Source: Bacillota bacterium (GTDB taxonomy: Bacteria > Bacillota > Clostridia > Christensenellales > Pumilibacteraceae). From it: a stretch of DNA of 64,000 nt. Below the pieces are notes generated by a model. That model saw nothing but the letters and a program-made list of their open reading frames with translations. It did not search any database and was not told the DNA's origin. This document shows, piece by piece, positions 2,599 through 53,488 of this stretch; the stretch's first letter is position 1; every line of letters starts with the position of its first letter. Where the stretch lies: positions 1 through 64,000 of the forward strand of contig WQVM01000002.1 in assembly GCA_009783985.1 (NCBI GenBank). Direction: 5' to 3'. The translations under genes and the position numbers were made by a program.

Positions 2599-2670
2599 AA
2601 TAACCTCTCTATATGTAAAACGCTTAATAGTTTTGCTAGCCACTTAATAATTGTATGATTGGACTCTTAT

Positions 2671-22511: not shown

Positions 22512-22547
22512 GTGAGGGGAAACTTTTTGTAAAAAGTTTCCCCTCAC
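22512..22547 (-). terminator. strong hairpin (terminator or operon attenuator)
   Basis: GTGAGGGGAAACTTTTT/AAAAAGTTTCCCCTCAC perfect 17-bp stem. Confidence 0.65.
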
Positions 22548-31270: not shown

Positions 31271-31278
31271 TTACCCTC

Positions 31279-31578
31279 CTAAATTTGTGACCTGACCCAA
31301 TCTTGTAATATAGGCATTGAAATCCTTAACGCTACTATTAAAATGAATATAAGCGCGAAACCTATAATTGCACCGAGTAAATCTTTTTTTGCTTTTTCAC
31401 GACTGTTCTGCTCGTCACTTTTAGCAATTTTAATTCCTAAAAATATACAATAAATCGTTCCTACGCTTCCGACTATAGCTATTGCCGGCCATAGCACTGC
31501 GTTAATTACATCGAGTATCGGTTGAACAATCGGATTAAAGTTCGGTGCTGCTAATATCATTGTCATAAATAATTCCAT
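31279..31578 (-). CDS. VirB2/TrbC-like (Maff2-type) small membrane protein
   Basis: 99 aa, two TM segments 'VLWPAIAIVGSVGTIYCIFLGIKIAKSDEQNSREKAKKDLLGAIIGFALIFILIVALRI'. Confidence 0.78.
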   Translation of the reverse strand: MELFMTMILAAPNFNPIVQPILDVINAVLWPAIAIVGSVGTIYCIFLGIKIAKSDEQNSREKAKKDLLGAIIGFALIFILIVALRISMPILQDWVRSQI

Positions 31579-31611
31579 TAAACTAACTCCTTATTTTGTT
31601 GTTTGAAAATA

Positions 31612-31728
31612 CGGAGACCTCTTATCTCCGCAATAAAACGCCGCCTTTGCGGCAAACGCTATAGGGTGTCCCTATAGGCGTAATTTGTGGGTGGAAACAG
31701 GGCAAAATGCCCGTACTGATTCACACCC
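31612..31728 (-). promoter_or_regulatory. multi-hairpin 5' leader upstream of the VirB2-like gene
   Basis: Four successive stems: CGGAGAtaagaggTCTCCG; GCCGCaaagGCGGC; GCCTATAGGGacaCCCTATAGC; GGGTGtgaatcagtacGGGCattttGCCCtgtttCCACCC. Confidence 0.6.
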
Positions 31729-31803
31729 TTATCCTGCTTGTCTTTTACTTATTCATTCCCCCATTTCTGAATCATAATAAGTAACTAGTTTTCTCACCAA
31801 TAG

Positions 31804-31833
31804 TGGGGCGCGGACTCCCCGTTCCGCGCCCCG
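31804..31833 (-). terminator. GC-rich hairpin downstream of the adhesin-like gene
   Basis: GGGGCGCGGA/TCCGCGCCCC stem. Confidence 0.6.
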
Positions 31834-31844
31834 CACCATAATAA

Positions 31845-34800
31845 TTAAGCGTTCTTTTTCGGTTTGGATTTGAAAGCCTTTCGCTTACGCATGACAATCA
31901 CTACCGTAATCCCGCCGACCAATAAGCCTATTATGAGGATAATAACAATCGTTCCGGCGGCATTGACCGCGTACACAATTTGAAAAGTATACTCGGTTAC
32001 ATTTCCCGCACTGTCAGTTAAAATAATTCTATAACTGCCCTCTGCCGTTAATACATTACCAAACGAAAATGCAAACGCTTCTCCGTTTAGATATGCTCTG
32101 ACAGTTACTTGCTTATTCGGATTTCTCAGCGTTACATTCCCGCCTGTTCTGCCACCGTTTGTTACACCCACAAGTTCGGCACTCGGCATAACCGTATCTA
32201 TCTCGAATATAAACTCAGTCTCATTGCCCGCGCGGTCAGTCAAGGTAATTCTATACGCTCCGCTCTCGGTTAACTGACTACCGCCTTCATATGTGCCGAT
32301 AAAAACTCCGTCCTTATAAAGTCTCGATATAATACCGACTCCGCCAAACTCCAGCCAAACAGGTTGATTTGTTATACCGCCGTTAGTTACACCGTTTAAT
32401 AAGCCTACAGGCAAAGCTTTAATGATAGTAAAGGTAAAAATTCTAATATAGCCGTTACTATCAAAGAACTCTAAAACATATCTGCCCTCTTCGGCAATTT
32501 CACGGTTAGAGGTATACTCAATCTCTATGCCTTCACGCATAAGCCTTACATATGCCTCATCCGTCCATGAAAACCTTACTGCGCCGTTTGTATACCCTCC
32601 GTCTTCAACACCGTGCAGAGTGCCGACAGGCGGTGGTTTCAGGTAATCAAACTCGGATATTACAGCGTCAATTCCGCTTCTGAAATTATCCGTAACAACG
32701 ACTCTGTACAGTCCGTCACGATTAAATTCAAAAAATAATCTCTCGGTATTGATTACTCTATTATAGTTATCTGTTTCTAACCGTTTCCATGTCAAGCCAC
32801 CGTCAATCGATCTATAAATCCGAATTTCTATCAGTGTTGCCCCAATATCGTTACTCGGCTCTATACGCACTTCCAAACGCTTACTAACTAAATTATCTAC
32901 AAATGTAATGACCAGACTGTTCAAGGATATAGCAAATTGAATCTCGGAAGATAACCCCGCATGGTTTATTGCTGTCACAAAATATCTACCGCTTGTTAAA
33001 GTAAACTCTTCATCGTGATGAACTACCGCTAAAATCTCACCAATGCTGTTACGAATAATAAGCATAGCGAAGTCAGCTCCAAAGTCAGAATTTATTTTAA
33101 GCGTAACCGCTTCCCTAAACGCATACCGAATATCCGAGTCAGCTAAGTTTAATACACCGCCCTCTAATCTAAACCAAATTTCGGGAACATTACGGACAAT
33201 AATAAGCGTAAATACATAACTGTTTCCCCAATCATCGTACACGGTCAAAATATGTTCTCCTTCCGTGCTAAAAACGCCTCCCGTAAACGGCACTCCGTTT
33301 ATACGATAATTAGCGTGAGCTGCAAGCGTTACGCTGTTTCCTATAAAAGTGTTGTACGCCGTTAGCTTGTGGACATTATTCCCCTCATAGGCTTGGGCGG
33401 GAGTTCGTTGCCACCAGTAGAATGTACTCACAGACTGTAGTGCAAATTCAGCGATTACTGCATTAAGCCTTTCAAGTGTAAAGTATGCAACCAATACATT
33501 ATGATTACCCGACATTTTATAAATAAAGTATTTTCCGTTTTGAGCGTTTACGCTGTCAATGTTATCCATCGGAATACCGCCGTCCCATGTATCGCCATAC
33601 CAAACAGCTGTACGGATTAAGCTCCGTTCCCGCGCTACCGCAAAAACAAACGCATTATAGAATGTATCAAAAGAAAAACGATTGCCGTCCTCATCTGCCG
33701 TTTCCCAAAACTGTTTGTTTATCGTATTGTTCATTACTTCTATACGACTTGCCGTGAAATCAGCCGTCCACACATTTCCTGCCGCGTCAATACTTTCTAT
33801 AACATATGCTCCGCCATTGATAGTTCGTATAACACCATTTGATGTAATCGATCTGCCGTTAACCGTAACCGAAACAATCGGCGCAGTAGTGAGCGGGCTG
33901 TCGTTAATCCAGCTTACAGTTACATTCTCACTCGTCCTATCATTGATGACACCGCTTAAAGTAACAGGCTTAGGTGTACGGTCAACAATAATGACATATA
34001 TATTTGAGGTGTTTCCGACAATATCCTGAGCAAAAAACTCATATCGACCCGCCGCAGTAAAAGTAAAGAATTGAGCGTACGGAATAAAGGTTGCCGTATT
34101 AGGCAGCTTTACAAATGTTACCAAAATCGAGCCACCGCTTGCCGACATACTGATACGCTCCGCATTAGTAAAAGTCCCGTTATCCACGGGACTTTCATTT
34201 GCAAATAGCTGTACTGACGGTCTTTCCGTTAATAGATACGCTTTATACTCATCACTCATATTTCCTGCTCTGTCTATCGCTCTGAAAGTATACCATCCGT
34301 CACCCGAATTAGTGGTTATTATCTCTCCGTTATAAATTGTCCATGTTCCGCTTGGACGCATTACCTCCTTTCTTGCTATTCCGCTTACTGAATCTACTGC
34401 TGAAAATCTTATAGCTAGGTTGGTACTTGCTCCGTTTAATATAGCTATGCCGCCTGCATAAAGCGTGCCAATAGGTCTACAAGTATCCAGTGTGACGCTT
34501 ATCGTTTCGGCTACATTTCCCGCCCTGTCCACGGCAAAAAAGTAATATCTGCCTCCTTCAAAAAACCGTGTGCCTTCTGTATATGGAATAAAGTTAGCTG
34601 TATTCGGAAGTCTTACAAACATTCCTGCAATTCCGCTTTCTAAGTCTGATGCAGAAAAACTAACAAAGCCGTTATTTGTATACGCACCGCTACTAAGTTG
34701 ACCCATTGCGTCAAAAATAGTCAGCTGAGGTTTAGTTAAATCAAGAAAAACCGAAATGACGGGCGATGTATTACCTGCTCCGTCCTCGGCATAGAAATAC

Positions 34801-35807
34801 CATCTGCCGACATTAGCCATAATCGCTTCTATCGTAACACTTGAACCTGTAACGATTGTAAATCCGCCGATACTACCTCGCCTATGAAATACCCGCACAA
34901 CTCCTGTAAGCACATCCGTTGCATAAAAGTTAATCGCTTGATTAGTAAATTCAGGCAGCGCCGCATTTACAGGCGGAGTTTTGTCTACAACAAGAGTAAA
35001 TATCGCCTGTCGCCCTGCCTCATTACGAAGTACAATTGTATATATACCGTCCGTTTCTATCGCAGAATTTCTCTGATACGGAACTCCGTTAATCGTCGCA
35101 TATTTAGCAGGCTGATTAACTAACGGATTATCCCAACTAAAACGCGGACTCGGCATAGACGCATTACTATAATATCTTCCGCTAGGTTGTCTTACAGCAT
35201 TAGTAAATGTACCCGTAGGCGTGGTTGTATTTATTCTCGCATTCATTACATTCGTACTGAAATAATTAAAATCCCAAAAAGCTCCGCCCGCCGTTGATAC
35301 AACTCTTATATGAAATGATATAATACAATCCCTATCCCATAAATTTGATACGGTATGCGAAAAGGGTGCTACCATAGTGCCGTTCGGCGGACTAAAATTC
35401 GGGTTTAGTTGGCTATGGATATAATGAAGATTACCGTTAATATATGCCCGTAATGTAACCTCTCGTATTGCGTTGTTGAATACAGCGTCAGTTGTAAATA
35501 TGATAGCGTCGTTATTGATTCCGACTGTCACGGCATTTATCATTATACTTGACTGTGCTGTACCGCCTCCGCCCGCTCCTGATGACATTAGATTTCCGTT
35601 AAGTGAAAACTCATGTCTTAGCATCGCATTAAATGTCATATTTATTGATGCAGACGCTTCCGCGCGTTCTTCTCTTGAATTTGATGTAGCCGACATAAAA
35701 ATGAATAAACCTGTCGCTACCGCGATAAGCATACTTATTACAATTATCCTTACTTTAATTTTTTTCACTAAAATTTTCTCCTTGTAAATGTTTAGATATA
35801 ATTTCAT
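31845..35807 (-). CDS. large Ig-like-repeat surface protein (adhesin-like) of the conjugation module
   Basis: 1320 aa; N-terminal TM/signal; repeated 'VDKTPP...FYATDVLTGV', 'YYFFAVDRAGNVAETISVTLDTCRPIG'; C-terminal TM plus KR-rich tail. Confidence 0.8.
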   Translation of the reverse strand: MKLYLNIYKEKILVKKIKVRIIVISMLIAVATGLFIFMSATSNSREERAEASASINMTFNAMLRHEFSLNGNLMSSGAGGGGTAQSSIMINAVTVGINNDAIIFTTDAVFNNAIREVTLRAYINGNLHYIHSQLNPNFSPPNGTMVAPFSHTVSNLWDRDCIISFHIRVVSTAGGAFWDFNYFSTNVMNARINTTTPTGTFTNAVRQPSGRYYSNASMPSPRFSWDNPLVNQPAKYATINGVPYQRNSAIETDGIYTIVLRNEAGRQAIFTLVVDKTPPVNAALPEFTNQAINFYATDVLTGVVRVFHRRGSIGGFTIVTGSSVTIEAIMANVGRWYFYAEDGAGNTSPVISVFLDLTKPQLTIFDAMGQLSSGAYTNNGFVSFSASDLESGIAGMFVRLPNTANFIPYTEGTRFFEGGRYYFFAVDRAGNVAETISVTLDTCRPIGTLYAGGIAILNGASTNLAIRFSAVDSVSGIARKEVMRPSGTWTIYNGEIITTNSGDGWYTFRAIDRAGNMSDEYKAYLLTERPSVQLFANESPVDNGTFTNAERISMSASGGSILVTFVKLPNTATFIPYAQFFTFTAAGRYEFFAQDIVGNTSNIYVIIVDRTPKPVTLSGVINDRTSENVTVSWINDSPLTTAPIVSVTVNGRSITSNGVIRTINGGAYVIESIDAAGNVWTADFTASRIEVMNNTINKQFWETADEDGNRFSFDTFYNAFVFAVARERSLIRTAVWYGDTWDGGIPMDNIDSVNAQNGKYFIYKMSGNHNVLVAYFTLERLNAVIAEFALQSVSTFYWWQRTPAQAYEGNNVHKLTAYNTFIGNSVTLAAHANYRINGVPFTGGVFSTEGEHILTVYDDWGNSYVFTLIIVRNVPEIWFRLEGGVLNLADSDIRYAFREAVTLKINSDFGADFAMLIIRNSIGEILAVVHHDEEFTLTSGRYFVTAINHAGLSSEIQFAISLNSLVITFVDNLVSKRLEVRIEPSNDIGATLIEIRIYRSIDGGLTWKRLETDNYNRVINTERLFFEFNRDGLYRVVVTDNFRSGIDAVISEFDYLKPPPVGTLHGVEDGGYTNGAVRFSWTDEAYVRLMREGIEIEYTSNREIAEEGRYVLEFFDSNGYIRIFTFTIIKALPVGLLNGVTNGGITNQPVWLEFGGVGIISRLYKDGVFIGTYEGGSQLTESGAYRITLTDRAGNETEFIFEIDTVMPSAELVGVTNGGRTGGNVTLRNPNKQVTVRAYLNGEAFAFSFGNVLTAEGSYRIILTDSAGNVTEYTFQIVYAVNAAGTIVIILIIGLLVGGITVVIVMRKRKAFKSKPKKNA

Positions 35808-38025
35808 GTGTTCTGCCTGTTTTATCAGCTTGCTGTAGCTTGATTAACTTCTCGCTTAAATCACTCAGTAGCTCAATAAGATAATAATTCTTAAATCCGT
35901 TTGCAATTGCTCGTGCCTCATCTATGACTCCTATAGCTTCCACATATTGCCTATTGTCTAAATAAGACATTAGTTTTGCATACCCGCTGTCATCAATTAA
36001 GCCTTCCGTTGCCGCCTCTGCTAAGTTCTTATAATGCTCTATAAATAAATCCATTTCTTTGTCGCTGACAGGGTTAGGCACATTTCCGTTTGTTCCGCCG
36101 TTACTTTCATACGGTATAATAACGCTGTTACGCTTTTTCATATCGTAATAAACCTTTGTTTCGTCAAAGAATTTTCCCTCGTGTAATTTTTGAGTTGTCT
36201 TTTCCATTTTTAATGATGTACACTTAAAGCTGGGTGTGAATTTACTTCTAATAGGGTCAAATCCAAAAACCGTCACAATTGCGTTACCCATATCTGTCGG
36301 TGAATTGAGTTTTTGTAATTCCGACGGGTAAATAAGCGGGCGCTCCTTAATACTTGCATTGGAGTTAATGTCGCTTGCTTTTATTGTGTTGTAGCCGACA
36401 TTCCTTGTGATTACCGAAAAGTTGCCGCACCGTTTACTAAATTCCTCGATTGTCTTTTGGTCAGTCGAGCCTATAAATACTTGGATATTGGTATTAGACT
36501 TAATAATCTCGCTTACCTTTTCGTCGTACACCTTAGCAAGTTGCGCATATGATTGAATAACTAAATGAAGCCAGATATTGCGTGAGCGGCCGACTGTTAT
36601 CATCTGCTCCAGCTTTGGTATTGGAGGCAACTGTCCGAACTCGTCAAGCAAAAAGTAAACAGGACGCGGCAAAGTCAAATCCTGCTTTTCATTTGCCACA
36701 CGCACAAGCTCCTTATACGCTTGCAAAATAACCATTGCCGCAAGCGGGTGTCGCGTTTCCCTCTCATCGGGTATTTGTAAGAATAGTGCCGTCGGCTTAT
36801 CCGCTAAACTTGTAAAATCTATATCGTTTTCGCTTGTTAGACTGCATAGCGACAAATCGGCGAATAAGTTGAGTTTATCGAAGAGAGTAGATAAGTAACT
36901 GTTCCGTGTTTTATCCGAACTGCCGATAACTTGCTTAGATAAGCTCCGCGCTCTTGATGTGTCGGGTCTGCCAAGAAAATATTTAAGTAATTCTTCACAA
37001 TCATTTTCAGTATTTGTCGCTATAGCTTTAAGATTATAAAAATTATATCGCTCCTTTGTCATTCCTAAGTCGGGATTTTCGCTGTCCTCTAACATCGCAA
37101 GCGCAATCGCTAATATAAAATTCTTTGCTCCGCTTTCCCATAGAGGTTCTTGCTTATTTTGTATCGGGCATAATACAGTAGCTATGTCGTGCAAGTCCTC
37201 GTACACGGTGTCACCTATCTCTTGCCTTTTAACTCCGATTGCATTTTCTAACTTTTTTATGTCGTAATACTCCTCACCGTTAAACATCATACCGCCCGTT
37301 TCTTCATTAACTTTTACTTCCGTTTCAAGCCGTAACATTCTTTGATGATTGAGATACGCTCTTTCTAACGGATTCCACTTAATCGAGTGAAACGGGTTAC
37401 GCAAATCAAGCACCTTAACATCATAGCCTCTATCCATTAGGCTCTTTGCATGGAGCTGATACAGTTCTCCTTTGGGGTCACTGATAAGCATTGACGCTTT
37501 TGACGCACTCTCTGCAAGGATTTGTATCACGGGATTGATATAGGCTGTGGTTTTTCCGCTTCCTGTTGTGCCTATAATAAGCACATGGGCAAACCCTGCA
37601 AAATCTATGTCATAGGTTCTGCCTTGAACTGCTCTGATAGGAACACCGCTTATATTGCGTTTACTTAAAGACTCGAAATCCGAGTGATTAAAGTTCTTGC
37701 GGATTTCTTCATCAGTTTGAAATTTTGCGTCCTCTAAATTAGTTTCAATATCGCTATCGCGCTTATGTCCCTTAATAATCCTGTTTGTCGCTTTTAGCCA
37801 ATAATGATTATAGTAATAAATAGCGTAAATTAAGATTGATACACCCATAAACAGCCCCGTATATATAAATGTATCACGGTGTGCTAGTAACCAAATACTA
37901 AAACGAAAGCTAAAATTATTTATTACTAAGCTATTAAATACAAACCCGCAAGCGTATGATAATGCCGTTAAAATTAAGACTGCCAATAGTATTTTTTCTA
38001 ATTGTTTATTCCATTTCGATTTCAT
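35755..38025 (-). CDS. VirD4/TraG type IV coupling protein
   Basis: 'HVLIIGTTGSGKTTAYINPVIQILAESASKASMLISDPKGELY', 'VYFLLDEFGQLPPIPKLEQMITVGRSRNIWLHLVIQSYAQL'. Confidence 0.94.
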   Translation of the reverse strand: MKSKWNKQLEKILLAVLILTALSYACGFVFNSLVINNFSFRFSIWLLAHRDTFIYTGLFMGVSILIYAIYYYNHYWLKATNRIIKGHKRDSDIETNLEDAKFQTDEEIRKNFNHSDFESLSKRNISGVPIRAVQGRTYDIDFAGFAHVLIIGTTGSGKTTAYINPVIQILAESASKASMLISDPKGELYQLHAKSLMDRGYDVKVLDLRNPFHSIKWNPLERAYLNHQRMLRLETEVKVNEETGGMMFNGEEYYDIKKLENAIGVKRQEIGDTVYEDLHDIATVLCPIQNKQEPLWESGAKNFILAIALAMLEDSENPDLGMTKERYNFYNLKAIATNTENDCEELLKYFLGRPDTSRARSLSKQVIGSSDKTRNSYLSTLFDKLNLFADLSLCSLTSENDIDFTSLADKPTALFLQIPDERETRHPLAAMVILQAYKELVRVANEKQDLTLPRPVYFLLDEFGQLPPIPKLEQMITVGRSRNIWLHLVIQSYAQLAKVYDEKVSEIIKSNTNIQVFIGSTDQKTIEEFSKRCGNFSVITRNVGYNTIKASDINSNASIKERPLIYPSELQKLNSPTDMGNAIVTVFGFDPIRSKFTPSFKCTSLKMEKTTQKLHEGKFFDETKVYYDMKKRNSVIIPYESNGGTNGNVPNPVSDKEMDLFIEHYKNLAEAATEGLIDDSGYAKLMSYLDNRQYVEAIGVIDEARAIANGFKNYYLIELLSDLSEKLIKLQQADKTGRTHEIISKHLQGENFSEKN

Positions 38026-39238
38026 CTCGCTCCTTTTGTTTATCGCTCCCGATATTATTCATCTCTGCCTCCTTTAATTTTGCTAAATATTCGCTAAAAG
38101 CGGTCATCGCTTCGCGTTCAATCAGTACGCCCATCTTTAAGCAATGTGTCAACATACCCGCTGTCATTTGCTTTTTCACTCTTTTTCTTATTGCGTTGCT
38201 TTTTGTGGCTTTTTGCTTGTTCTTAAATACCCTAGCCGTATTGATAATATAATTCCCTAGCCGTTTGTACACATCATCTAAAACCTTATCCGCCGTTAAA
38301 TACTTTTCCCAATACTTTTCGTCTACCTTTTGAGATATTAGTATTTTCTTTGTCCGCTCGTCATGTATTACCGCCGCATTACAAAACACATTAAACGCAT
38401 TATACAGCTTTTTGTCCGATTTAATTAATAGATCCGTTATACAGTTTATCCTTGGTCTAAGCGCTGTCATATTTTCACTTGCATAGGATAAGTGTCCCTC
38501 GGCAGGCAGCAGCGTTACAAGTTTGAGCATTTTTTCTTGTATTGCCGTTAAGTTTCTTTTCATGTTGCCCGTACTGAATAATACATTTTTTGCGATACTC
38601 GTCACACCCTTACGCGCTAATTTCAATTCACCGGTTATATCCGTTAAACATCTCTCAATATTTATCTTAAAGCGGGTTAGAATATTTTTATTGATTAGCC
38701 CGTTTGAAAACTGCGGTTCATTGTTTTTCCGCGCGGTATATCTTAACGGCTCATTCTCAAAGAATGAAAAATGGATATGCTTGTTAAATGTATTCTCATG
38801 AAGTCCCGCATACCATGTTATATTCTCAGCCTTGAGTCCCGCGCTCTTAAATAGCTTCGGAAGTTCCTTGTTCATTAGCCTTAACGCATCGGCATTATCC
38901 GTCATGTACTTATTGCCAAACTCGGTGGTAAAAGATATGACACCGTGCCAAATAACGCTTTTTGATGCTCGCAACTTTTTTCTCAGCTCTGTTTGTTGTT
39001 CCTTATCTAATTGTCCATCGCTATCATAAACACCGTGACTTTTCTCTTTATTTCCCGTATATGACACATAATCTATCTTTTGTTTTGACCCGTCATTAAC
39101 ATAACTGACATAATTGGACTTACCTCTACAAGAATAAAATTTACGCTTTTCTCCGTACTTCTCTCTTAAAGACGGTGTTATTTGGCTATCCTCATGCGGA
39201 GCGTATGCAAATCGCAATACAACATTGGGCGCACTCAT
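38006..39238 (-). CDS. MobL/MobP-type relaxase
   Basis: 'WYAGLHENTFNKHIHFSFFENEP' HUH-type motif; 'VSYVNDGSKQKIDYVSYTGNKEKSHGVYDSDG'; upstream of VirD4. Confidence 0.82.
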   Translation of the reverse strand: MSAPNVVLRFAYAPHEDSQITPSLREKYGEKRKFYSCRGKSNYVSYVNDGSKQKIDYVSYTGNKEKSHGVYDSDGQLDKEQQTELRKKLRASKSVIWHGVISFTTEFGNKYMTDNADALRLMNKELPKLFKSAGLKAENITWYAGLHENTFNKHIHFSFFENEPLRYTARKNNEPQFSNGLINKNILTRFKINIERCLTDITGELKLARKGVTSIAKNVLFSTGNMKRNLTAIQEKMLKLVTLLPAEGHLSYASENMTALRPRINCITDLLIKSDKKLYNAFNVFCNAAVIHDERTKKILISQKVDEKYWEKYLTADKVLDDVYKRLGNYIINTARVFKNKQKATKSNAIRKRVKKQMTAGMLTHCLKMGVLIEREAMTAFSEYLAKLKEAEMNNIGSDKQKERDEIEME

Positions 39239-40080: not shown

Positions 40081-40593
40081 TTAATAGCCAAGAACTCTGC
40101 TGTTTTGGTACCCACCCCTCTTTTTTAAAACAAACTTATTAATTACTCTTATCTGTACTTTTTTGATGATTTTACTTATAATGGGACGGCTTATGCCTAG
40201 TTCAGTTGCAATTTGTGCGTGAGTTTTGTTGTTAGCATAATACTCAACTGCTATTTTTCTTTGGTAGTCTGTTAATCCTAAAGAGAAATCTTTAAGTAGC
40301 GGCTTGTTTCTCTCTTGCTCTTGCTGTAATAAAATTTCTAAAGGGTCATGCTCATTTGAAATATATGAATAGGTTTCTTGATTCCGCTTGAGGGATTTTT
40401 TTTCCAAACTACCGCTTAAATTTTCTTGTTCCTCAATCTCCATAAGCATATCTAATGAAATATGTCTCCGTGTTTCCTTACGATATACTCTCCGCTCTTC
40501 CACACATAACTTTGCGTACTCTGTCGCAAATTCGTCCGTTACCTCTATTTCCTCTACACTACCATCCGCCATTTTGTACTTGATTGTTTTCAT
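40081..40593 (-). CDS. sigma-70 region 4-like regulator
   Basis: 'LTDYQRKIAVEYYANNKTHAQIATELGISRPIISKIIKKVQIRV'. Confidence 0.75.
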   Translation of the reverse strand: MKTIKYKMADGSVEEIEVTDEFATEYAKLCVEERRVYRKETRRHISLDMLMEIEEQENLSGSLEKKSLKRNQETYSYISNEHDPLEILLQQEQERNKPLLKDFSLGLTDYQRKIAVEYYANNKTHAQIATELGISRPIISKIIKKVQIRVINKFVLKKRGGYQNSRVLGY

Positions 40594-40673: not shown

Positions 40674-41084
40674 TTAAACCAAATATTTTTTTATTTTTTC
40701 TTGGATTCTTTTTCGCATATGTGAAATGGCAGACTTATCCACTCCTAACTTAGTCGCAATGTCAGTAACGCTTATACCATTTTTAAGCATAATTACAAGC
40801 TGTCTCTGCTCTGGTGTTAATGATTGCAGCGCAGTTTTCAGTTTTGCCCTAAGCTCATTATGCTCCTCGCTTTGAACAAGTAAATACTCCGGATCAAACT
40901 CACTTGACCCTATTTCCTCGTCCCTATCGTTAAGTTTGTTAAGTTTGATGTGTCGGTAATATCTTTCTTTAGCCTCGTTCCGCCATTCTGCTCTACGAGC
41001 CTCGGCAATTACATCTGCCACTTCATCACTTACTTCTTGGGTGACTCTCTTACTCTCATGGTCAAAAAAATAAATTGTTTTCAT
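40674..41084 (-). CDS. sigma-70 region 4-like regulator (paralogue of the adjacent gene)
   Basis: 'LQSLTPEQRQLVIMLKNGISVTDIATKLGVDKSAISHMRKRIQEKIKKYLV'. Confidence 0.78.
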   Translation of the reverse strand: MKTIYFFDHESKRVTQEVSDEVADVIAEARRAEWRNEAKERYYRHIKLNKLNDRDEEIGSSEFDPEYLLVQSEEHNELRAKLKTALQSLTPEQRQLVIMLKNGISVTDIATKLGVDKSAISHMRKRIQEKIKKYLV

Positions 41085-41146
41085 TTTTAACTCCTTTCCC
41101 GCTTTTTTGAAATTACGGAACAGGAGATAAAATGGGTAAACAAAAA

Positions 41147-41176
41147 GCCCGTTCCGTCAGAACCGACAGAACGGGC
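41147..41176 (-). terminator. second terminator downstream of the ncRNA candidate
   Basis: GCCCGTTCTGTCGGTTCTGACGGAACGGGC followed by TTTTTG on the minus strand. Confidence 0.75.
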
Positions 41177-41221
41177 ATCATAGTCTATAAATATTGAGTT
41201 TTTTCCTTGGATATAGAAAAA

Positions 41222-41272
41222 CCCTTGCTAGATAGACCAATGAAAAAATTCCATCGGTTTACCTAGCAAGGG
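41222..41272 (-). terminator. terminator of the ncRNA candidate
   Basis: CCCTTGCTAG...ACCGATGgaattttttCATTGGT...CTAGCAAGGG followed by TTTTTCT (minus strand). Confidence 0.8.
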
Positions 41273-41274
41273 TG

Positions 41275-41466
41275 TATTCGCCTAACTCAACCTTTCTCCG
41301 TTTAGGGCTTAATTATTTAATGTCTTTCGGACAACGCTATTTCTAACGCAAATCTCCCCGTAGTGGTTTGAGCCTCCTACTTGTTGAAACTAGCTCTCTT
41401 CCCAAGGTCAGATTCGCCGTCTTGACAACGGCTTGTATCTTGGGCGCAAACATATTCAGTTTTTCT
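41275..41466 (-). ncRNA. structured noncoding RNA, tentatively raiA-motif-like
   Basis: No credible ORF; nested pairings CCCAAG/CTTGGG enclosing GCCGTtgtcaagACGGC, CCTAA/TTAGG, long-range TTGCGCC/GGCGAA; ends in a terminator. The raiA identity is from memory of the motif and unverified. Confidence 0.55.
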
Positions 41467-41490: not shown

Positions 41491-41676
41491 TTAGAGAAGA
41501 GGTATGTTCGGCAGACCGTCCGCCGCTTCTATCTCCTCAATCTTAACCCTTCCGCTCTTGTCCCTCTTTGCTTTCAGCCTTGCTCCGCAAAAGATGCATA
41601 GCAGTATTACACTGCTTGAGACATCAATGCTCATAGGCTGCTGCCTCGTACAACTTACACACACAATGTTTTTCAT
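41491..41676 (-). CDS. small zinc-ribbon protein
   Basis: MKNIVCVSCTRQQP...LLCIFCGARLKAKRDKSGRVKIEEIEA (two CxxC). Confidence 0.5.
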   Translation of the reverse strand: MKNIVCVSCTRQQPMSIDVSSSVILLCIFCGARLKAKRDKSGRVKIEEIEAADGLPNIPLL

Positions 41677-41680
41677 TTTC

Positions 41681-42295
41681 TCACCTCAAATCTTTTATTA
41701 CCTTTAATGCCACACCCTGTATGCGGCACTCCTTTACATATATATCTTCCATTGTACTGTTTTCGGGATGAAGGCATATCATCTGCCTTTTGTCATCACG
41801 ATAGTATCTCTTTAGTGTGTTTTCACCGTCTTCGGTTAGAGCAACTATGATTTGCCCGTCATCCGCCTCCTCTTGCTGCTTTACTAAAACCAAATCTCCG
41901 TCATCAATACCCGCCTCTATCATGCTTTCCCCCGATGCTCTTAAAAAGTAATAATTTCCTCGTCCTAAGAGTTCGGTAGATATTGTAATATAGCTGTCTA
42001 TATTCTCTTCTGCAAGCACAGGCGTTCCGCAAGCGATAGATCCGACTATAGGTATACACTTAGAACCGCACTTTGCTTTTTTTATTGCTGTTGTTACCGC
42101 TCCGCGACTCTTTCCCCCATCATACTCGATAATGCCCTCTTTCCCCATTAATTCTAGGTAGCGAACAACATTGCTTGCCGACATTTCCACAGCTTCTGCA
42201 AGCTCCCTTGCGCTCGGAGCTTGTCCTGTGTCAAAGAACCATTCATTGATAGCTCCTTCAATCTCCTCGAATTTTTCTCTGTTTATTGTTCTCAT
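41681..42295 (-). CDS. lexA: LexA-type repressor with S24 autoprotease domain
   Basis: 'PIVGSIACGTPVLAEENIDSYITISTELLGRGNYYFLRASGESMIEAGIDDGDLVLVKQQEEADDGQIIVALTE'; start at MRTINREKFEEIE preferred. Confidence 0.88.
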   Translation of the reverse strand: MRTINREKFEEIEGAINEWFFDTGQAPSARELAEAVEMSASNVVRYLELMGKEGIIEYDGGKSRGAVTTAIKKAKCGSKCIPIVGSIACGTPVLAEENIDSYITISTELLGRGNYYFLRASGESMIEAGIDDGDLVLVKQQEEADDGQIIVALTEDGENTLKRYYRDDKRQMICLHPENSTMEDIYVKECRIQGVALKVIKDLR

Positions 42296-42314
42296 ATCTA
42301 TCCAAATTCTAAAC

Positions 42315-42374
42315 GGCACAACTTGTGCCATATAGAATTATACCCATAATACCATGTCTTAAAACCTATGTCAA
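42315..42374 (-). promoter_or_regulatory. lexA promoter plus palindromic operator
   Basis: TTGACA (42369-42374) N17 TATTAT (42346-42351); perfect palindrome GGCACAAcTTGTGCC (42315-42329) before the start codon. Confidence 0.72.
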
Positions 42375-42485
42375 CTAAAAAAAGACAAGTATTAAAAAAT
42401 ACTTGCAATTTTTTTTGACGAATTTAGGAATTATCTTTTTTCTTATAAAGGTAATCTTATCAAGATGCTTTTGATATAAAACCCT

Positions 42486-42949: not shown

Positions 42950-43474
42950 TTACTCATTATATGTTATTGCTTGCGAATACGACTCGTAACCTTGCTGCGG
43001 ATTATTTTGAACTTTTGTTACCTCAGCTTCTTTTGATTTTTCTTCTGCTTGCTTTCTTGCCAACTCATGCTCTTTCATACGCTCGTCTATTCGGTTCTTG
43101 TAAAAAAGGTCAGTATCGTCATAATACTTAGCTACAAGTTTCTTGAAAGGCTTTGGGATACGGCTTTTGAGGGAGATTAAACAGCGGTCTAATGCTTCTA
43201 AAGAATTCTTCTTATAGATTTCTTTATTGAAAACTCCTGCCAAATGTTCCCACTCACCTGTTTCTTTCAGCTTGTCCACAAAGTTCTTATTGACCGTATT
43301 GATACTGTCGTCTATCCAAATATCTAGCCTTTTATTAAGCTCCTCTATAATTGGGTTGTTAATACGCTTACTCCACTTAAGTGCTTTTGACCTTATCCAT
43401 GTAATAGCTACAGTTGCAGCTACAGACAAACCACCTATCCCTAATGTCGTCAATAATGATTGCCATCTTAACAT
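42950..43474 (-). CDS. small membrane-anchored hypothetical protein at the end of the tail module
   Basis: N-terminal hydrophobic helix then charged coiled coil. Confidence 0.5.
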   Translation of the reverse strand: MLRWQSLLTTLGIGGLSVAATVAITWIRSKALKWSKRINNPIIEELNKRLDIWIDDSINTVNKNFVDKLKETGEWEHLAGVFNKEIYKKNSLEALDRCLISLKSRIPKPFKKLVAKYYDDTDLFYKNRIDERMKEHELARKQAEEKSKEAEVTKVQNNPQQGYESYSQAITYNE

Positions 43475-43490
43475 ATTCTGCTTTTTCCTC

Positions 43491-43910
43491 CTAACCTCTC
43501 GGTGGTTTGCCCTCTAACTGTCTGAGCTCAGCATGTACTGCCCTAAATCTTGCCTTGCGTTCCTCTATATCTGGAATATTGATTCCCATTTGTAGCTGAA
43601 TAGCATCCTCACTATACGCCGTTAACTCTCGCCTTAATTCGGATATCCTTTTTGTCTGTGACATCAACACCGCTTGTTTTTGACGCTCTTTCTCAAAACC
43701 GTTATGACTCTTATCAAAATACAACCGACCATCTCTAAGAATATAGTTGAGGTAGTTATTATTAAAATGTGCTAGTTGCTCCTCAGCTGTTTTGCCACCT
43801 TCAATATTTTTTAGCACTATTACATGCTCAAATGTCGCCGAACTAGATTCTCTAACTTCGTGCCACTTACCCACATACCCATTGGTTAACTGAAAAGATA
43901 TTGTTATCAT
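43491..43910 (-). CDS. hypothetical phage-module protein
   Basis: 139-aa ORF, overlaps the next gene by 4 nt. Confidence 0.5.
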   Translation of the reverse strand: MITISFQLTNGYVGKWHEVRESSSATFEHVIVLKNIEGGKTAEEQLAHFNNNYLNYILRDGRLYFDKSHNGFEKERQKQAVLMSQTKRISELRRELTAYSEDAIQLQMGINIPDIEERKARFRAVHAELRQLEGKPPRG

Positions 43911-45700
43911 AGCTGTACCTGCCTCCTTATAGGTCTTGATGTTATGTTGTTGCTCCTAAATCTGCTGCCCTCAGACGCCAATTGTCCGATTATTCGATTA
44001 TGGGGACTTATCTGGTCACTAATTATACAGCCGCTTACAACATGAGTACCCGAAAAACCCAAGTTGATAGCCTCTACATTTGTGCTTGACACATTAAAGC
44101 CTTGAGCTGCCCCTATTGGAAATCTACAATTCTGTATTATATGATAAGTATCCCATGCCGAATTATTAGTCCTGTATCCACTAGCACCCCGACCATCAGC
44201 AGTCAAGCCAATGCCGTCGCAATTTACAAGCATAGCATTATGACAATGAAAACCGACGCCTAAACGACTTCCCATTCCCATGGCTATACCCGTGCCTATG
44301 CAACTAGCATATTCGCTTTCGTCACCATTAAAGCCATCTCCTCTAATGGTTGAGGTGTCATGACTACTTGCCGTCAATCCTATTCCCATTCCATTACAGT
44401 TAGTATATTTATTAGTCCGCCCACTAAACCCTCTGCCTGAATTATCTGAAGTGCTAGATGTCATAACTGTGATTTTTCCAATTCCAGTACAATTAAAATG
44501 GTTATTATTGTTGCCGTGAAACCCTGTAGCTCTCACAACTCCCATTGCCACTCCTTTGCAATATGAATAAGCATTATTATTGCCTCCAAAAGCTGTAGTA
44601 GAACTACCTGTCGTTGTAGTTGCAACCTCACAATTAAAATGCTTGTTGTTGTGTCCACTATATCCTCTACTTGCAGCTGATGTCGCTACTGTAACCCTAC
44701 AATCATAATATATATTGTCATTACCCATAAATCCTGTGCCTGACATAGACGATATTCCAGACTCCGAACTTATATTAACTGTACCCTTAGAAATTATAGT
44801 ATTATCCCCATAGAAAGCTGCGCCTCTTCCAGTAAATCTAAAATTAAGAGTTATTTTTATATTGGCTTTCTCATGACCAATAAAGCTTCCATTATTATAG
44901 ATTAGTACGCCATTATCCCCTCCATTAAAAATCTTTTGCGGAATTGTTGCATTACTCCAATCTATATAAAGTTTTCTATTGCCGCTATAATTTGCAATAC
45001 CAAAATCAAAATATCTCCAATCATTACTCCATGCACCTGTTCCTGCGATTGGTCTTTCAGTTATTCCCACAACACCATTAACCACAATCTTGAGTGATGC
45101 ATTATTATTTAATGCTCCCTCACCTGTAAGCGGAGCATTATAAAAATCCTTGCTCATTCTAGTCAATATTTCATTGTCATTGACTCCATTGCAATTGTAC
45201 ACAAAAGAAGCACCCGCACCAGCTGGCAACTTCTCTAGCGGCACTTGTCCATTCTCATCAAGTGTCGCTATTCCATTTGGTCGTCCAAACAAATGTGTTA
45301 CATCTCTACCATCTCTTCCGGGAGCACCTACTGGACCCTGTATCCCCTGTATGCCTTGCAGTCCAGTAGCTCCTCTAAGATCAGTAAATGCACCCCAAGC
45401 ACCATTAGCATTTTGAAATCTCAAACTTGTCCCATTCCATTCATGTTGTGGCGGATTTCCTTGAGGTCCCCTTAAATTACCGGCCGCTTTTCCGGTTTCA
45501 TTTGATGTCACTATCACTATATCTCCAATTGCCGCCATAACACCAAGCAACCTTACTGGCATCTTGCCGGTATTGACAACAGCATCGTCAATTCTCAACC
45601 CTTCAATATAGGATATGTTTTCCAATTCCTCATCTTTATTCCATGCAAAGAAATGTCGTCCTTTATCTCCTCTAACATGACCTAGTTTTATCTCTCTCAT
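43907..45700 (-). CDS. tail-fibre-like protein: collagen-like segment plus Cys-containing repeat region
   Basis: 'GATGLQGIQGIQGPVGAPGRDGRDV'; 'NGIATLDENGQVPLEKLP' tail-fibre motif; repeated 'GFxGxNNxxxxCxG' units. Confidence 0.72.
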   Translation of the reverse strand: MREIKLGHVRGDKGRHFFAWNKDEELENISYIEGLRIDDAVVNTGKMPVRLLGVMAAIGDIVIVTSNETGKAAGNLRGPQGNPPQHEWNGTSLRFQNANGAWGAFTDLRGATGLQGIQGIQGPVGAPGRDGRDVTHLFGRPNGIATLDENGQVPLEKLPAGAGASFVYNCNGVNDNEILTRMSKDFYNAPLTGEGALNNNASLKIVVNGVVGITERPIAGTGAWSNDWRYFDFGIANYSGNRKLYIDWSNATIPQKIFNGGDNGVLIYNNGSFIGHEKANIKITLNFRFTGRGAAFYGDNTIISKGTVNISSESGISSMSGTGFMGNDNIYYDCRVTVATSAASRGYSGHNNKHFNCEVATTTTGSSTTAFGGNNNAYSYCKGVAMGVVRATGFHGNNNNHFNCTGIGKITVMTSSTSDNSGRGFSGRTNKYTNCNGMGIGLTASSHDTSTIRGDGFNGDESEYASCIGTGIAMGMGSRLGVGFHCHNAMLVNCDGIGLTADGRGASGYRTNNSAWDTYHIIQNCRFPIGAAQGFNVSSTNVEAINLGFSGTHVVSGCIISDQISPHNRIIGQLASEGSRFRSNNITSRPIRRQVQL

Positions 45701-45719
45701 TGGTTTTACTCCTTTGAAT

Positions 45720-46487
45720 TTATCTTTTAATGTATACGCTTATAATTGTTTTTCCGTTTTGATTTGTTGATTCTTGAATATCAAACCTATAAGGACTTCC
45801 AAGCGGAACTTGATGATACAAAAACCCTTCATAATCTTTGAATATTAGCGTTACTAAAAACTCATCTGCTCTAAAAATATTGAATCTTGTTTCTCCGTCA
45901 TCTGAAATTGCTTCTTCAAACCTAATAGCTTCTATCGGACTATTATCATCCGGCATAGCTCTAAGTTGCCAAATACTTCTATTAGGCAAAGAGTTTTCTG
46001 ATTTTTCAGCTTCTATTATAACAATAGGTGCTCGTTCAATAGGTCTATCTCCTAAGTTCTCCCCATCTATTATTGTTTCAAGTTTACCCGTTCCTTTAAT
46101 GCTTATATCTATCTTAGCTACGCCTTCAGCACTCATATCTACACTTAGCGATTCAATAAACCCATTGCCCAAAAAATATGTGCTATCTTGACCGTTACGA
46201 ATACTATCAAATAGATGCAATTGAAGTCTTACCCTTTGCCCCAATTGTTGAGCGCGAAATAACTGTTCATGACCGCTATTCTCACCACTAAAAACAATTG
46301 TACCGCTGGCACTAGCACTCCAGCTTTGCTTTCCGGTATAAGCCTCTTTGTCTACTTTGCCTACTTTCGAAATCTCAATAACTTCGGTAGATTGCTCTAA
46401 GTTCCAGCCGCTTATGAAAGCAACGCTCTCATACCGACCCGTAAGTCCCGTAAGCGTTTTTAACGCTCCTGTTAATCCTGTATACAT
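45720..46487 (-). CDS. phage major tail (tube) protein-like
   Basis: 'FISGWNLEQSTEVIEISKVGKVDKEAYTGKQSWSASASGTIVFSGENSGHEQL' tail tube-like fold signature. Confidence 0.6.
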   Translation of the reverse strand: MYTGLTGALKTLTGLTGRYESVAFISGWNLEQSTEVIEISKVGKVDKEAYTGKQSWSASASGTIVFSGENSGHEQLFRAQQLGQRVRLQLHLFDSIRNGQDSTYFLGNGFIESLSVDMSAEGVAKIDISIKGTGKLETIIDGENLGDRPIERAPIVIIEAEKSENSLPNRSIWQLRAMPDDNSPIEAIRFEEAISDDGETRFNIFRADEFLVTLIFKDYEGFLYHQVPLGSPYRFDIQESTNQNGKTIISVYIKR

Positions 46488-46520
46488 TTTGCCTCCTCTT
46501 TTTTGCTTGTTTGTTTATTA

Positions 46521-47801
46521 TCAATAGTGCAGAATAGCCGCTCCAGTTCTTCCATTTAATCCTCTCCACCAAAACCCGCCTGTAAACAACCCTGATGTAG
46601 TTGATCTACTGCCTCCTAAACCACCAGAACCATATCCCATCGTACTGCTACCTCCTGAAGAAGTTGCAGTTGTAATTCCTAAAACAGATCCAGCACCCCC
46701 TCCACCACCAGCACGCCGATCAAGGACTGAACCTGTATTATTTATACCATTCCCACCATTGTGCGTAATAAGAGGCGTTCTGCCCGAACTACCGACACCT
46801 CTTAAATTAGCCATATGCACCCGTATGTTAGGAATAATTCCTGAGCCGTCTATTACAGTATTATCATTATTTGCATAGCTTCCGCCCGCCGCACCGTTTG
46901 TGTGAGTGCCACCGCTATTGCTTCGACCTCCTGAACCTCCCGAAAGTCCGCTAGTCCTTGTAAGTAGTTGTATTCCTCCTATTGACACTGACGGTAAAGA
47001 GGTTGTTCCACCAGCTCCGCCATGTCCGCCAATAGTCCCCGAATTTGTAGAACCGCCACTCTGCCCGCCTCTACCACCTGAAGCTGTTATACTCCGCATT
47101 GTTCTAAGTGATAGCCCTAGTATAACAGTTGGCACCGACACACTCATAAACTCAATTGATGTTGAACCACCATTTCGTCCGACAGTATCACCATCAATAT
47201 TTGATTGGTCGCCACCTCTGCCTACTACTACTCTAATTACTCCAACAATTGAAAGATTAATAGCATATGAAAGAAACCCTCCGCTTCCGCCACCACCTCC
47301 GGCAGCAGCCGTATTACTAGAACCTGTATTAGGATTCCCCCCGCTTCCACCGCCCCCTATCATGTCAATTATCATTAAACTATGCCCTAGTTTTAACGCA
47401 GTCCAATTTCCATTTGTTCCGTTTGTAGTATCAATAGACTCATAAATTCCTGCCCCTTGGGAACCACAAGCCCTATACCATCGTGTTTCCCCGCCTACAA
47501 GACGTCTTACTCCCCAATTTACTGCACTTAAATTGCTTGGTCTATGAGGTACAAAGCCACTAGCAGGAGCTGTAAATGGAAGCTCTCCGTTTGTATCACG
47601 AAAGTCGGTTGATACCAATGAATTTCCCCACCAACCGTTTAATATTGCGGTTTGTCGAGTAAGATAATAACGCTCAGTACCACTTGGGATAAAATTACGA
47701 CCCGAAAGTCTAAAACACAAAGATTTATGAATAGGAGATGTTGACGCATAGTTAGCAACTTTATCATTCAACCTATTATTTCTACTATAAAAGCCTGACA
47801 T
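46521..47801 (-). CDS. glycine-rich tail-fibre-like protein
   Basis: 'MIGGGGSGGNPNTGSSNTAAAGGGGGSGGFLSYAINLS...GRGGDQ' Gly-rich domain. Confidence 0.65.
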   Translation of the reverse strand: MSGFYSRNNRLNDKVANYASTSPIHKSLCFRLSGRNFIPSGTERYYLTRQTAILNGWWGNSLVSTDFRDTNGELPFTAPASGFVPHRPSNLSAVNWGVRRLVGGETRWYRACGSQGAGIYESIDTTNGTNGNWTALKLGHSLMIIDMIGGGGSGGNPNTGSSNTAAAGGGGGSGGFLSYAINLSIVGVIRVVVGRGGDQSNIDGDTVGRNGGSTSIEFMSVSVPTVILGLSLRTMRSITASGGRGGQSGGSTNSGTIGGHGGAGGTTSLPSVSIGGIQLLTRTSGLSGGSGGRSNSGGTHTNGAAGGSYANNDNTVIDGSGIIPNIRVHMANLRGVGSSGRTPLITHNGGNGINNTGSVLDRRAGGGGGAGSVLGITTATSSGGSSTMGYGSGGLGGSRSTTSGLFTGGFWWRGLNGRTGAAILHY

Positions 47802-48748
47802 TAACTATCCTCCTTCTTTGCTTTTAACTCATCAAGTTCCTTTCTCATTTTTTTTAATTCGATTAATAATAAGTAAGCAAGTTTGGATTCTTCTATGCTA
47901 AGATATTCATCCTTTTTTTTCTCATCACCATGAACAAGCTCGGGAAAAACTTCCTTAAGTTCTTGAGCGATAAATCCAATAGATTTTTTATCTGAATCTT
48001 TATATTTATATTCTTTAACATCAAGTTCTAAAATTGACCTGTCTGTATTAAAATCTTTGATCTCTTTTTTAAGCCTTTTGTCGGATGTAGATCTAATTGT
48101 TGATGCTTCAAATGCTCCGTTATCTACAAATCTCCAGCGTCGAGGAGTTTCGCTGGCTGTTCCTGTCGCACTATGCCAAACTATATCCATCGAATTTGGA
48201 CCGCTACTACTATATACTCCAAGAGAAAAACATCCTTGATTATTATTACTATTTGCATTTGTGTTGGGTTCTGCCGCATTAGATATCCTAGAAGATATAA
48301 GCGGAGTCCACTCACTTCCAGCTATAGGAGCTCGCTTGCGTATTGCAGCTCTCGCATCACCAATAAGATTTCCCGTCACGTTGTTATCGCGCCATACTCC
48401 GCCTCCAGTATCAGAAGTTATATTTCTGCCAAATGTATATGCTGCAGGAAGCGTCGTTGAAAAAGACGGATTATTGTTGACCCCCCCGTTACTTATCAGA
48501 ATACTACCGGCATTTCCTGCACTAGTTGATGCTAATTCTGTAGCCGAATCGGCAAACACAACCCCTTTTGATGTAAAGTTTGTCCCCCGACCAGTGCCAC
48601 CTCTATTGACAGGTGTTATTCGACTTTCTAAATGGACAGTGTTGTCGACAAGCATATTCATATCATCTACGGTTAGTATGCTATCTTCATTAAAATTACC
48701 GTTATTACCTCGTCCATTAAATTCACTTTTACCATTAAATTGTGACAT
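47801..48748 (-). CDS. tail fibre with C-terminal intramolecular chaperone (Peptidase_S74)
   Basis: 'STSDKRLKKEIKDFNTDRSILELDVKEYKYKDSDKKSIGFIAQELKEVFPELV'. Confidence 0.9.
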   Translation of the reverse strand: MSQFNGKSEFNGRGNNGNFNEDSILTVDDMNMLVDNTVHLESRITPVNRGGTGRGTNFTSKGVVFADSATELASTSAGNAGSILISNGGVNNNPSFSTTLPAAYTFGRNITSDTGGGVWRDNNVTGNLIGDARAAIRKRAPIAGSEWTPLISSRISNAAEPNTNANSNNNQGCFSLGVYSSSGPNSMDIVWHSATGTASETPRRWRFVDNGAFEASTIRSTSDKRLKKEIKDFNTDRSILELDVKEYKYKDSDKKSIGFIAQELKEVFPELVHGDEKKKDEYLSIEESKLAYLLLIELKKMRKELDELKAKKEDS

Positions 48749-48797
48749 TGTTATATCTCCTCAAAAATTATTTTTACTGCTAATGATAGCATTTCAG

Positions 48798-48826
48798 TTG
48801 ACTTTTTTGTGCTGTTGTGATATACT
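48798..48826 (+). promoter_or_regulatory. sigma-A-type promoter of the collagen-like lipoprotein
   Basis: TTGACT N17 TATACT. Confidence 0.7.
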
Positions 48827-48867
48827 AATCATAGTGGGTTTTGTCCCATAAAAAGGAGTTAATTACT

Positions 48868-49509
48868 ATGAAAAAGAAGATTTTAATTAGTATTGTATTA
48901 GCGTTAGTATTGGGCTTGTCTATGCTTGCTTTTGCGGGCTGTGGGTCTGACAGTGACTTGTTACGCCGTATAGAGCAGTTAGAGCAAGAATTAGCCGAAG
49001 CAAGGGAGTTAGGCGGAATACCCGGACCACAAGGTCCTCAAGGCGAGCAAGGCACAGCAGGTAATGACGGTGCTGCCGGTCCTCAAGGACCACAGGGTCC
49101 TCAAGGTGACACAGGTGCTACTGGTCCAATCGGACCCGAAGGTCCTGCTTGGCAACCGGAACTAAATAGGATACATCAACTTGGTGACACTTTTGTTTTT
49201 ACAAATCACGGACAGGCATTATTTAGCATAAGAGTATATGTTCTTTCAGCAGAAGCAACTTCTTTTCGCATTACCGTTACGAATATTAATCATCTCCCTT
49301 TTGTTGTAAACGACCTTGTCCGTACACGAAATGGAAATACTACAGTAACAGCTCCTAGCACTATTTCAACAATAACACTTCACAACTATGAAGACTATGT
49401 GACCATTAATTCTGGATTTGGAGGGTTAGGAGCAGGTAATAATTATGTTTGGTTCGGGACTCCCGTCGGAAACACAATTATTCCTTTCGCCGTTTTTAGA
49501 GTTCGTTAG
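48868..49509 (+). CDS. collagen-like lipoprotein (prophage moron-type)
   Basis: Lipobox '[13 protein letters not shown]', coiled coil, '[44 protein letters not shown]'; own promoter, opposite strand to the tail genes. Confidence 0.8.
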
Positions 49510-50522
49510 TTTATTAGAATTTCAATTTCCTTAAAACTGCGTGTTCTTGATGATAAACTAATTTTTAGACTGCTAGCGGTTGCCGAGATTACTTTAGCAA
49601 ATCTAGCTTCGTCAATACCAACGATTTCACCCATATTGATACGGTTAATGTAGATGTTATCAATTTTTTCATACACCTTTTCAAGTTGAATTGTAGTAAC
49701 AACACTATGTGTATGATTAAGCGGTGTTCCATTAGGTCGTGGGTTAGAAATTGAAAATTCAGTTACCTCACAATCCTTATAGTTGACCGTCACAGTTTCC
49801 CCACCGCCGTCAGGCACAAGCACATAGTATTCGACATTAACCTTATTGACGATAGTCCTTGACTTAACGGGGATATTGTAGCTAAAGGCATTGTCGGGGG
49901 TTATCTTGACGGGGCAATTACATTGCGTCCCTGCTTGACAATTACATTGTACCCCCACCGGAGTTCTGCTCTTGCACCTGCCCTTAGTCACCTGCCTAAA
50001 GCCCCCGCTATCAAGAGACAACTCATTAGACAGACACTCATACTCCTTTGCCCGTGCCGGCTCCTCGTGTAAGCTATGAGCCACAAACTCATCACTTAAT
50101 CCTAACCTAATATCACCTTTCCATTCGGTGTCGACAAAGTCTACACCGTTTTTATATTTAGCAAGTATTCTATTAGCTATTGCCTCTAATATCGGCGGAA
50201 CTCGGGTGGTATTAGTAGTAGCGTATATAGCAGCGTCATATTTGTACTCACTCAAACCGTAACTACGGATACTATCCTCGTCGCAGACGCTAAAATACGC
50301 TTTGACCTTTTTGTAACTGGGTGATTCTGTTTGAATATCCTCGTCTAAACGCACCGGCAAAGCACTCAGACTATCTTCTTGACTGACTACCATACCCGTC
50401 CTGTCCGCATATACATACATAGCCGCCAAATTAGCTATACTCTGCAATACCTGTCTTGCCGACTTTTCTTCTATCAAACGGTTTAGGAGTTTGGCGGATA
50501 AACTGATCGAGGTGCAATACAA
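49506..50522 (-). CDS. phage-module hypothetical protein, probably 5'-truncated
   Basis: Continuous 338-aa ORF upstream of the fibre genes; N-terminus abuts the oppositely oriented Rep module. Confidence 0.55.
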
Positions 50523-52440: not shown

Positions 52441-52457
52441 TACTAAGGATAAAATAT

Positions 52458-53213: not shown

Positions 53214-53220
53214 AAAATAC

Positions 53221-53259
53221 AAAAAGACAACAAGACTTAATTTGCCTCGTTGTCTTTTT
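53221..53259 (+). terminator. intrinsic terminator of the Rep operon
   Basis: AAAAAGACAAC/GTTGTCTTTTT. Confidence 0.75.
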
Positions 53260-53395
53260 GTTCTTTATTGTACTTTTGCAAGCCCTGCCCATTATGTGAC
53301 AACTGCTTGCGGTTCTCTGATTGCAACTACGCCTGCAACACCCTCAACGAATATATAATGCAATATATTCTTATAGGGGTTCAAACGCGGTTGTT

Positions 53396-53408
53396 CTTGG
53401 CGGAGTGG
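53396..53408. repeat. putative attR core (13-bp direct repeat CTTGGCGGAGTGG)
   Basis: Identical to 3529-3541; overlaps the tRNA-Ser acceptor stem 3' end. Confidence 0.7.
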
Positions 53409-53488
53409 GAGGGATTTGAACCCTCGCACCGGTTACCCGGCCTACATCCTTAGCAGGGACGCCTCTTGAGCCACTTGAGTACCACTCC
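53401..53488 (-). tRNA. tRNA-Ser (anticodon GCU)
   Basis: Minus strand GGAGTGGTACTCAAGTGGCTCAAGAGGCGTCCCTGCTAAGGATGTAGGCCGGGTAACCGGTGCGAGGGTTCAAATCCCTCCCACTCCG: acceptor stem, long variable arm, GGTTCAAATCC T-loop. Confidence 0.95.

Follow-up and report, generated by a model that had tools for sequence, protein, structure and literature searches.

The 64,000-nucleotide stretch of DNA analyzed here, hereafter the window, contains an ICE with a transfer operon on the minus strand. It encodes a MobL/MobP2-type relaxase (positions 38006-39238) and, at 27006-38025, a VirD4 of the CD1115 family, a surface protein, a membrane protein and VirB4. On the same strand, and in front of these genes, a LexA/S24 repressor gene (41681-42331; TIGR00498, 148 bits with a cut-off of 111; PF00717 and PF01726) is followed by an ORF for a 61-amino-acid Zn-ribbon protein (41491-41676), an intergenic region with two terminators, designated T1 and T2, and two ORFs for sigma-region-4-like regulators. 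The first of these regulators, related to sigma-70 region 4 (136 amino acids, 40674-41084; PF08281, phrog_11138), is encoded by the first ORF behind the terminators, and the second has 170 amino acids (40081-40593). The minus strand of 41222-41466 is free of ORFs and starts ~25 nt past the end of the Zn-ribbon ORF. A structured non-coding RNA inside the ICE had been proposed here by the initial annotation, rightly so, as an intergenic element with a core at 41464-41276 on the minus strand is recognized by two covariance models, R2 and R3, with matches that extend over 41464-41254 and so also take in the start of T1.

From 5′ to 3′, the RNA has the conserved sequence ACAAYUGAAUA (UGUUUGCG), a P2 hairpin, a linker, helix P4 around helix P3, and ACCCUUGC, which is the start of T1. 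P2, with its variable interior, occupies 41401-41444 and pairs CCCAAG (41444-41439) with CUUGGG (41406-41401). The linker, AAGAGAGCUAGUUUCAACAA in the window and AAGAGAGYUUGU.UCAACAA as the consensus across copies, is conserved and unpaired, and with the P4 5′-arm (GUAG, 41380-41377) spans 41377-41400. P4 in general pairs GUAG with CUAC and encloses P3; in the window the 3′-arm is AUAC (41274-41277), of which UAC pairs with GUA at 41380-41378. P3 (41286-41372) pairs CUCAA (41372-41368) with UUGAG (41290-41286) at a position chosen post hoc, and in the window its loop has two additional hairpins, P3a (41349-41334) and P3b (41333-41321). With T1 included, the fold has a z-score of -4.57, and with T1 left out this is -0.69; the core of the closest relative, G015, scores +0.57. 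As the low energy comes from the 3′-terminator T1, any claim of an unusual fold must rest on conservation, and the structure of this RNA is visible in conservation, not in stability. The RNA described at the outset as highly structured is therefore so by conservation and not thermodynamically. The nested stems noted then are present and are backed by covariation in relatives, while the pairing of the two ends (UUUGC with GCGAA) holds, by inspection, in the window and in G015 and is not clear in the other copies.

The family has eight copies, the window RNA and seven more, all in genomes of the window's order. A DNA search returned one relative, G015, in which the gene order is that of the window, namely a LexA/S24 gene, Zn-ribbon ORF, RNA, two terminators and a small ORF. 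A search with a profile of two Zn-ribbon ORF sequences gave G032 and G019, with a shorter RNA at the equivalent place, and model R1, built from these two, gave G103. A pattern scan of 85,488 GTDB genomes added one more copy, G025, and model R2 identified two that were not in its seed: G000b, at another site of the genome to which the window belongs (G000:C9), and G157, which is decayed. Model R3, seeded only with G025, G103, G032 and G019 and thus without the window, has a single match up to E = 10 in the 64-kb window, at 41464-41254 on the minus strand (39.6 bits; E 2e-6), and also matches G157, G000b and G015. The E-values are rough, and the variable loops of the seed alignments (A6 and A9) were trimmed, so that the loops in these seeds are artificial. 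With filters off, the match in the window is split into two weaker ones. G019, G103, G025 and G032 are Bacillota MAGs with isolate names that, as we read them, fit termite-gut samples. No additional member was found in samples of 392 genomes of the class and 397 of the order, in 41 pattern-matched viral contigs or in pattern scans of the viral collection. Several candidates were rejected: L007, inside a phage coding gene, and L038, within an apparently chromosomal gene, are chance matches to the pattern; L024 to L027 were judged by eye from their sequences to be chance; 41 IMG/VR contigs bearing the linker motif are without a model match; and L035 has a sigma-like relative, but upstream of it neither a Zn-ribbon ORF nor the RNA. 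The existence of the family is close to certain. It was previously uncatalogued and is absent from Rfam 15; at gathering cut-offs, Rfam 15 yields only a tRNA in the window and nothing in the relatives.

Covariation, which the initial annotation had suggested as a check, is strong for P2 and P4. In a six-sequence alignment, 96.7% of their cells are paired and 8 of the 10 pairs have changes on both sides, a combination equalled by none of 500 shuffles; slid controls have only 27-43% pairing. Counted by hand over the usable copies (seven or eight), 42 of 42 pairs are formed in P2 and 30 of 32 in P4, the fourth P4 pair being missing in the window and in G015. P3 is paired at 37 of 37, but was placed after the fact. 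Both P2 and P4 contain G-U pairs on the transcript strand. The covariation is thus clear despite only eight known copies.

The initial annotation had labelled the RNA as possibly raiA-motif-like, with a guide-RNA-like RNA as a less likely alternative. RaiA motif RNA (ModT, RF03072) has eight helices and two pseudoknots, and is found near comFC and raiA (74% and 66%, respectively) (PMC11706538). The window RNA is like it in being from Bacillota, in its length of about 200 nt and in having a terminator at the end. However, the helices are different, the neighbors are LexA, Zn-ribbon and sigma-like genes rather than comFC or raiA, and there is no RF03072 match in the window at the gathering cut-off of 101.3 bits, nor any in the local region at E up to 10. 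Across the window's whole genome there is only a meaningless 8.8-bit match, on another contig, and there is none in 25 genomes of the window's family. This test is informative because the same search detects raiA in four further families of this order, with E from 1e-41 to 1e-49. In the opposite direction, R3 has no match in three raiA loci, or where the conjugation operon of pLS20 begins. The raiA label is therefore refuted; with no TnpB, IscB or Cas-type protein found adjoining the RNA, the chance that it is either a raiA or a guide RNA is negligible.

T1 (41216-41273) is a strong, bulged terminator (-34.4 kcal/mol) with a stem at 41273-41221, followed by a U tract, of which the conserved 5′-arm is ACCCUUGC. 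T2 (41142-41176; -23.5 kcal/mol) has a 13-bp stem (41176-41147), also followed by a U tract. Both had been seen in the initial reading; T2 is present as described there, and T1, then given as a 10-bp GC stem, is real with a longer stem of about 14 + 10 pairs. T1 is located behind the RNA in all eight copies and T2, with a conserved CCCGUU..GUCGG stem, in seven, being weak or absent in G000b. These are the strongest operon-strand terminators found in the window ICE, and in G019 the strongest over the first 17 kb behind the RNA, beyond which the genes run the opposite way. The window operon carries no series of strong terminators, and T1 and T2 dominate a few weaker others.

The best sigma-70-type promoter of the region (TTGACA-17-TATTAT with TG before the -10; 42346-42374, minus strand) is in front of the LexA gene. 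Just upstream of it, read directly, is a palindrome, CAAGTATT-TTTT-AATACTTG (42386-42405), that is probably the operator; a LexA box of the Bacillus type (GAAC-N4-GTTC) was not found at this promoter. In G032, where the repressor gene as read from the sequence is apparently divergent, a TTGACT-17-TATAAT promoter is aimed at the Zn-ribbon ORF. In seven of the eight copies, no promoter-like pair precedes the RNA, and the TATAGT at about 41480-41475, earlier suggested as a -10-like box, has no -35 partner that we could find. Between T1 and the start of the next ORF, there is no promoter-like site in any of the eight copies, so that the ORF behind T2 seems to need readthrough for its transcription. 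The Shine-Dalgarno (SD) sequence of this ORF in the window is within a hairpin (41091-41126, minus strand; z-score -3.4) that pairs AGGAG (41095-41091) with CUCC (41126-41123), so that five of the five SD bases are paired. Such a hairpin is clear in the window, G015, G032, G019 and G025, and weak or missing in G103, G000b and the decayed G157. The order in intact elements is thus Zn-ribbon ORF, RNA, T1, usually T2, and then a regulatory ORF, nearly always sigma-region-4-like, with an SD that is usually hidden.

In an alignment of eight, the Zn-ribbon protein has four invariant cysteines (C6-C9-C27-C30). It could be assigned to no specific family, and Pfam provides no support for Mu Com or any other named family. 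The AlphaFold model (mean pLDDT 77) is a generic LysW-like ribbon without a significant match in the PDB; neither the window Zn-ribbon protein nor the window sigma-like protein has a match in 50,697 phage records. G015 has a second Zn-ribbon ORF (L017; 295-498, G015:C23), with no RNA behind it, that adjoins a chromosomal gyrB-like gene and is perhaps a remnant. The elements that carry the module are diverse. The window copy is in an ICE; in G000b (L044; 435-12774), the module is followed by prophage genes (terminase, portal and major head), and in G103 tail genes precede the module. G019 encodes a serine recombinase, a Rep and a Zot-domain protein, with the module before small regulators and further element genes, and G032 encodes a Viral_Rep-type Rep. 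The hosts of the module are therefore an ICE, tailed prophages and small Rep-encoding elements, which argues for a general on/off function in mobile elements and against a role in conjugation DNA.

This RNA, which is conserved, covaries and always has the same setting, with T1 directly behind it and T2 in most copies, could be a cis-acting gate that lets RNA polymerase pass T1 and T2 and so serves as a switch for the mobile element, a reading to which we give about even chances. A single transcript would begin at the LexA/S24 operator-promoter and cover the repressor gene, the Zn-ribbon ORF and the RNA. While the element is at rest, this transcript would end at T1 and T2, so that the repressor is made and the transfer (or virion) operon is unexpressed. 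After induction, presumably via LexA cleavage, there would be enough transcription of the operon for the nascent RNA, with P2, the AAGAGAG...CAACAA linker and P4/P3, to act; probably bound by the Zn-ribbon protein as its partner, it would modify RNA polymerase, and the modified polymerase would then pass both terminators and transcribe the genes for the sigma-like regulators and for transfer. The hairpin over the SD of the regulator may provide an added translational lock. By analogy with known systems, the mechanism is probably processive antitermination aided by the Zn-ribbon protein. A single alternative fold would hardly control two terminators in a row, which favors a processive change of the polymerase; processivity is not, however, demanded, because only T1 and T2 are strong and no terminator run follows along the operon. 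The weak or absent T2 in G000b and the lack of a specific family for the Zn-ribbon ORF argue against the gate. A broader proposal, in which Zn-ribbon protein and RNA form an undescribed two-part antitermination module that in gut Bacillota is swapped as a cassette among conjugative elements, tailed phages and small Rep-encoding elements and serves as their common on-switch, is more tentative, and we consider it possible but rather less than probable. In ICEs, prophages and small Rep elements alike, the RNA has a fixed place, with repressor genes on one side and the main operon on the other, and this makes it a direct, testable candidate for how uncultured mobile elements silence costly genes while making their own repressor.

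Other explanations also fit parts of these observations. The RNA might be a stable sRNA, the released 3′-terminal part of the transcript of the repressor and Zn-ribbon genes, with its end at T1 and a function in trans; it might, for instance, open the SD hairpin of the mRNA for the sigma-like regulator or bind the Zn-ribbon protein. T1, immediately behind the RNA, would give it a clean 3′-end, most copies have the SD of the next ORF in a hairpin, and the conserved single-stranded linker could be the seed; but no promoter of its own was found for the RNA, no consistent complementarity of the linker to the SD hairpin is apparent by eye, and transcription of the ORF behind T2 is left unexplained, and we regard an sRNA as unlikely. 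Less likely again is a riboswitch-like attenuator, controlled by a ligand or protein, in which alternative folding decides termination at T1 only. An aptamer-like architecture, with two covarying helices and conserved unpaired motifs, is indeed located immediately before a terminator, but an upstream complement to the T1 5′-arm (ACCCUUGC) was not seen by eye across the copies, an independent T2 is behind T1 in seven of the eight, and the downstream genes are those of mobile elements, with no metabolic set.

Equally doubtful is that the RNA is an ordinary 3′-UTR with tandem terminators as insulators, having its role elsewhere, for example in an RNP with the Zn-ribbon protein, and that the transfer genes have other promoters. 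Promoter-like sites do occur inside the window operon, at chance density, but the first regulatory ORF is nearly always present and yet in no copy has such a site after T1. That the element functions as single-stranded DNA, as an oriT or single-strand origin, and not as RNA is very improbable: it does lie in an ICE, with the relaxase gene some 2 kb downstream, and hairpins with conserved loops are typical of such elements, but a copy also precedes the virion genes of a tailed prophage, P2 and P4 have their G-U pairs on the transcript strand, and intrinsic terminators are always coupled to the RNA.

Antitermination by a protein together with an RNA is documented for conAn of pLS20 (ConAn1 and conAn2) (PMC8955417), and the proposed gate resembles this by analogy at most. 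In both, a Gram-positive conjugation operon has close to its start a small protein gene and then a structured RNA, their counterparts in the window being the Zn-ribbon ORF (41491-41676) and the covarying RNA (41464-41276), and the transfer genes of both include a MobL/MobP2 relaxase, a CD1115 VirD4 and a pLS20_p028-type membrane protein. ConAn1, which we identified with the gene at 2564-3082 of NC_015148 because this opens the operon, has 172 amino acids and is without a CxxC...CxxC ribbon, whereas the window protein is a 61-amino-acid Zn-ribbon; the conAn RNA region of pLS20, about 380 nt long, folds differently, and an R2 search of it gave no match. Homology to ConAn1 or conAn2 was thus not detected, by model search for the RNA and as judged from length and cysteine motif for the protein. 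The pLS20 operon also has >20 intrinsic terminators, unlike the window operon with its dominant T1 and T2. CanT of Tn916 is a cis RNA antiterminator of an ICE (PMC11658703) and, by its description, similarly lets transcription pass terminators that guard transfer genes. Unlike the window RNA, canT is at the other end of its element and acts after excision, and a tested fragment of about 450 nt is independent of other Tn916 genes (PMC11658703). HK022 put RNA and B. subtilis EAR are nascent structured RNAs with which polymerase passes terminators (PMC9378689, PMC8955417). As described, these are like the window RNA in being structured, nascent and made where transcription of a phage or operon starts. 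Their architecture differs from that of the window RNA, and neither is known to have a Zn-ribbon partner gene. The window RNA is therefore a new RNA family with a function of a known kind and, if the Zn-ribbon protein is its trans factor, the module would be a second protein-plus-RNA antitermination design beside conAn.

Several other features of these elements were recorded. In the window, a repetitive predicted surface protein of 1320 amino acids is encoded within the ICE transfer region (31845-35807), two ORFs of the transfer operon are separated by a 16-pair hairpin with a T tail on the operon strand (22512-22547), and two large serine recombinases of about 560 amino acids are encoded near one element end (3485-5161 and 7651-9333). 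The viral contig L008, to which R1 and R2 give no match, has at 600-1950 a LexA homologue, another ORF, a Zn-ribbon-like ORF and two terminator-like hairpins, and also a hairpin and GUA...UAC ahead of the terminators, a similar layout that we take as a lead only. Phage tail genes on the same strand (42950-50522), including that for a major tail protein (45720-46487; phrog_1407), are directly upstream of the LexA module in the window, as in G103, and the window ICE borders on prophage material or is fused to it. Further upstream, 51259-53488 contains a gene for a Rep with Viral_Rep (PF02407) and RNA_helicase domains, an ORF and a tRNA gene (53401-53488, minus strand), and similar Reps are found in the G032 and G019 elements.
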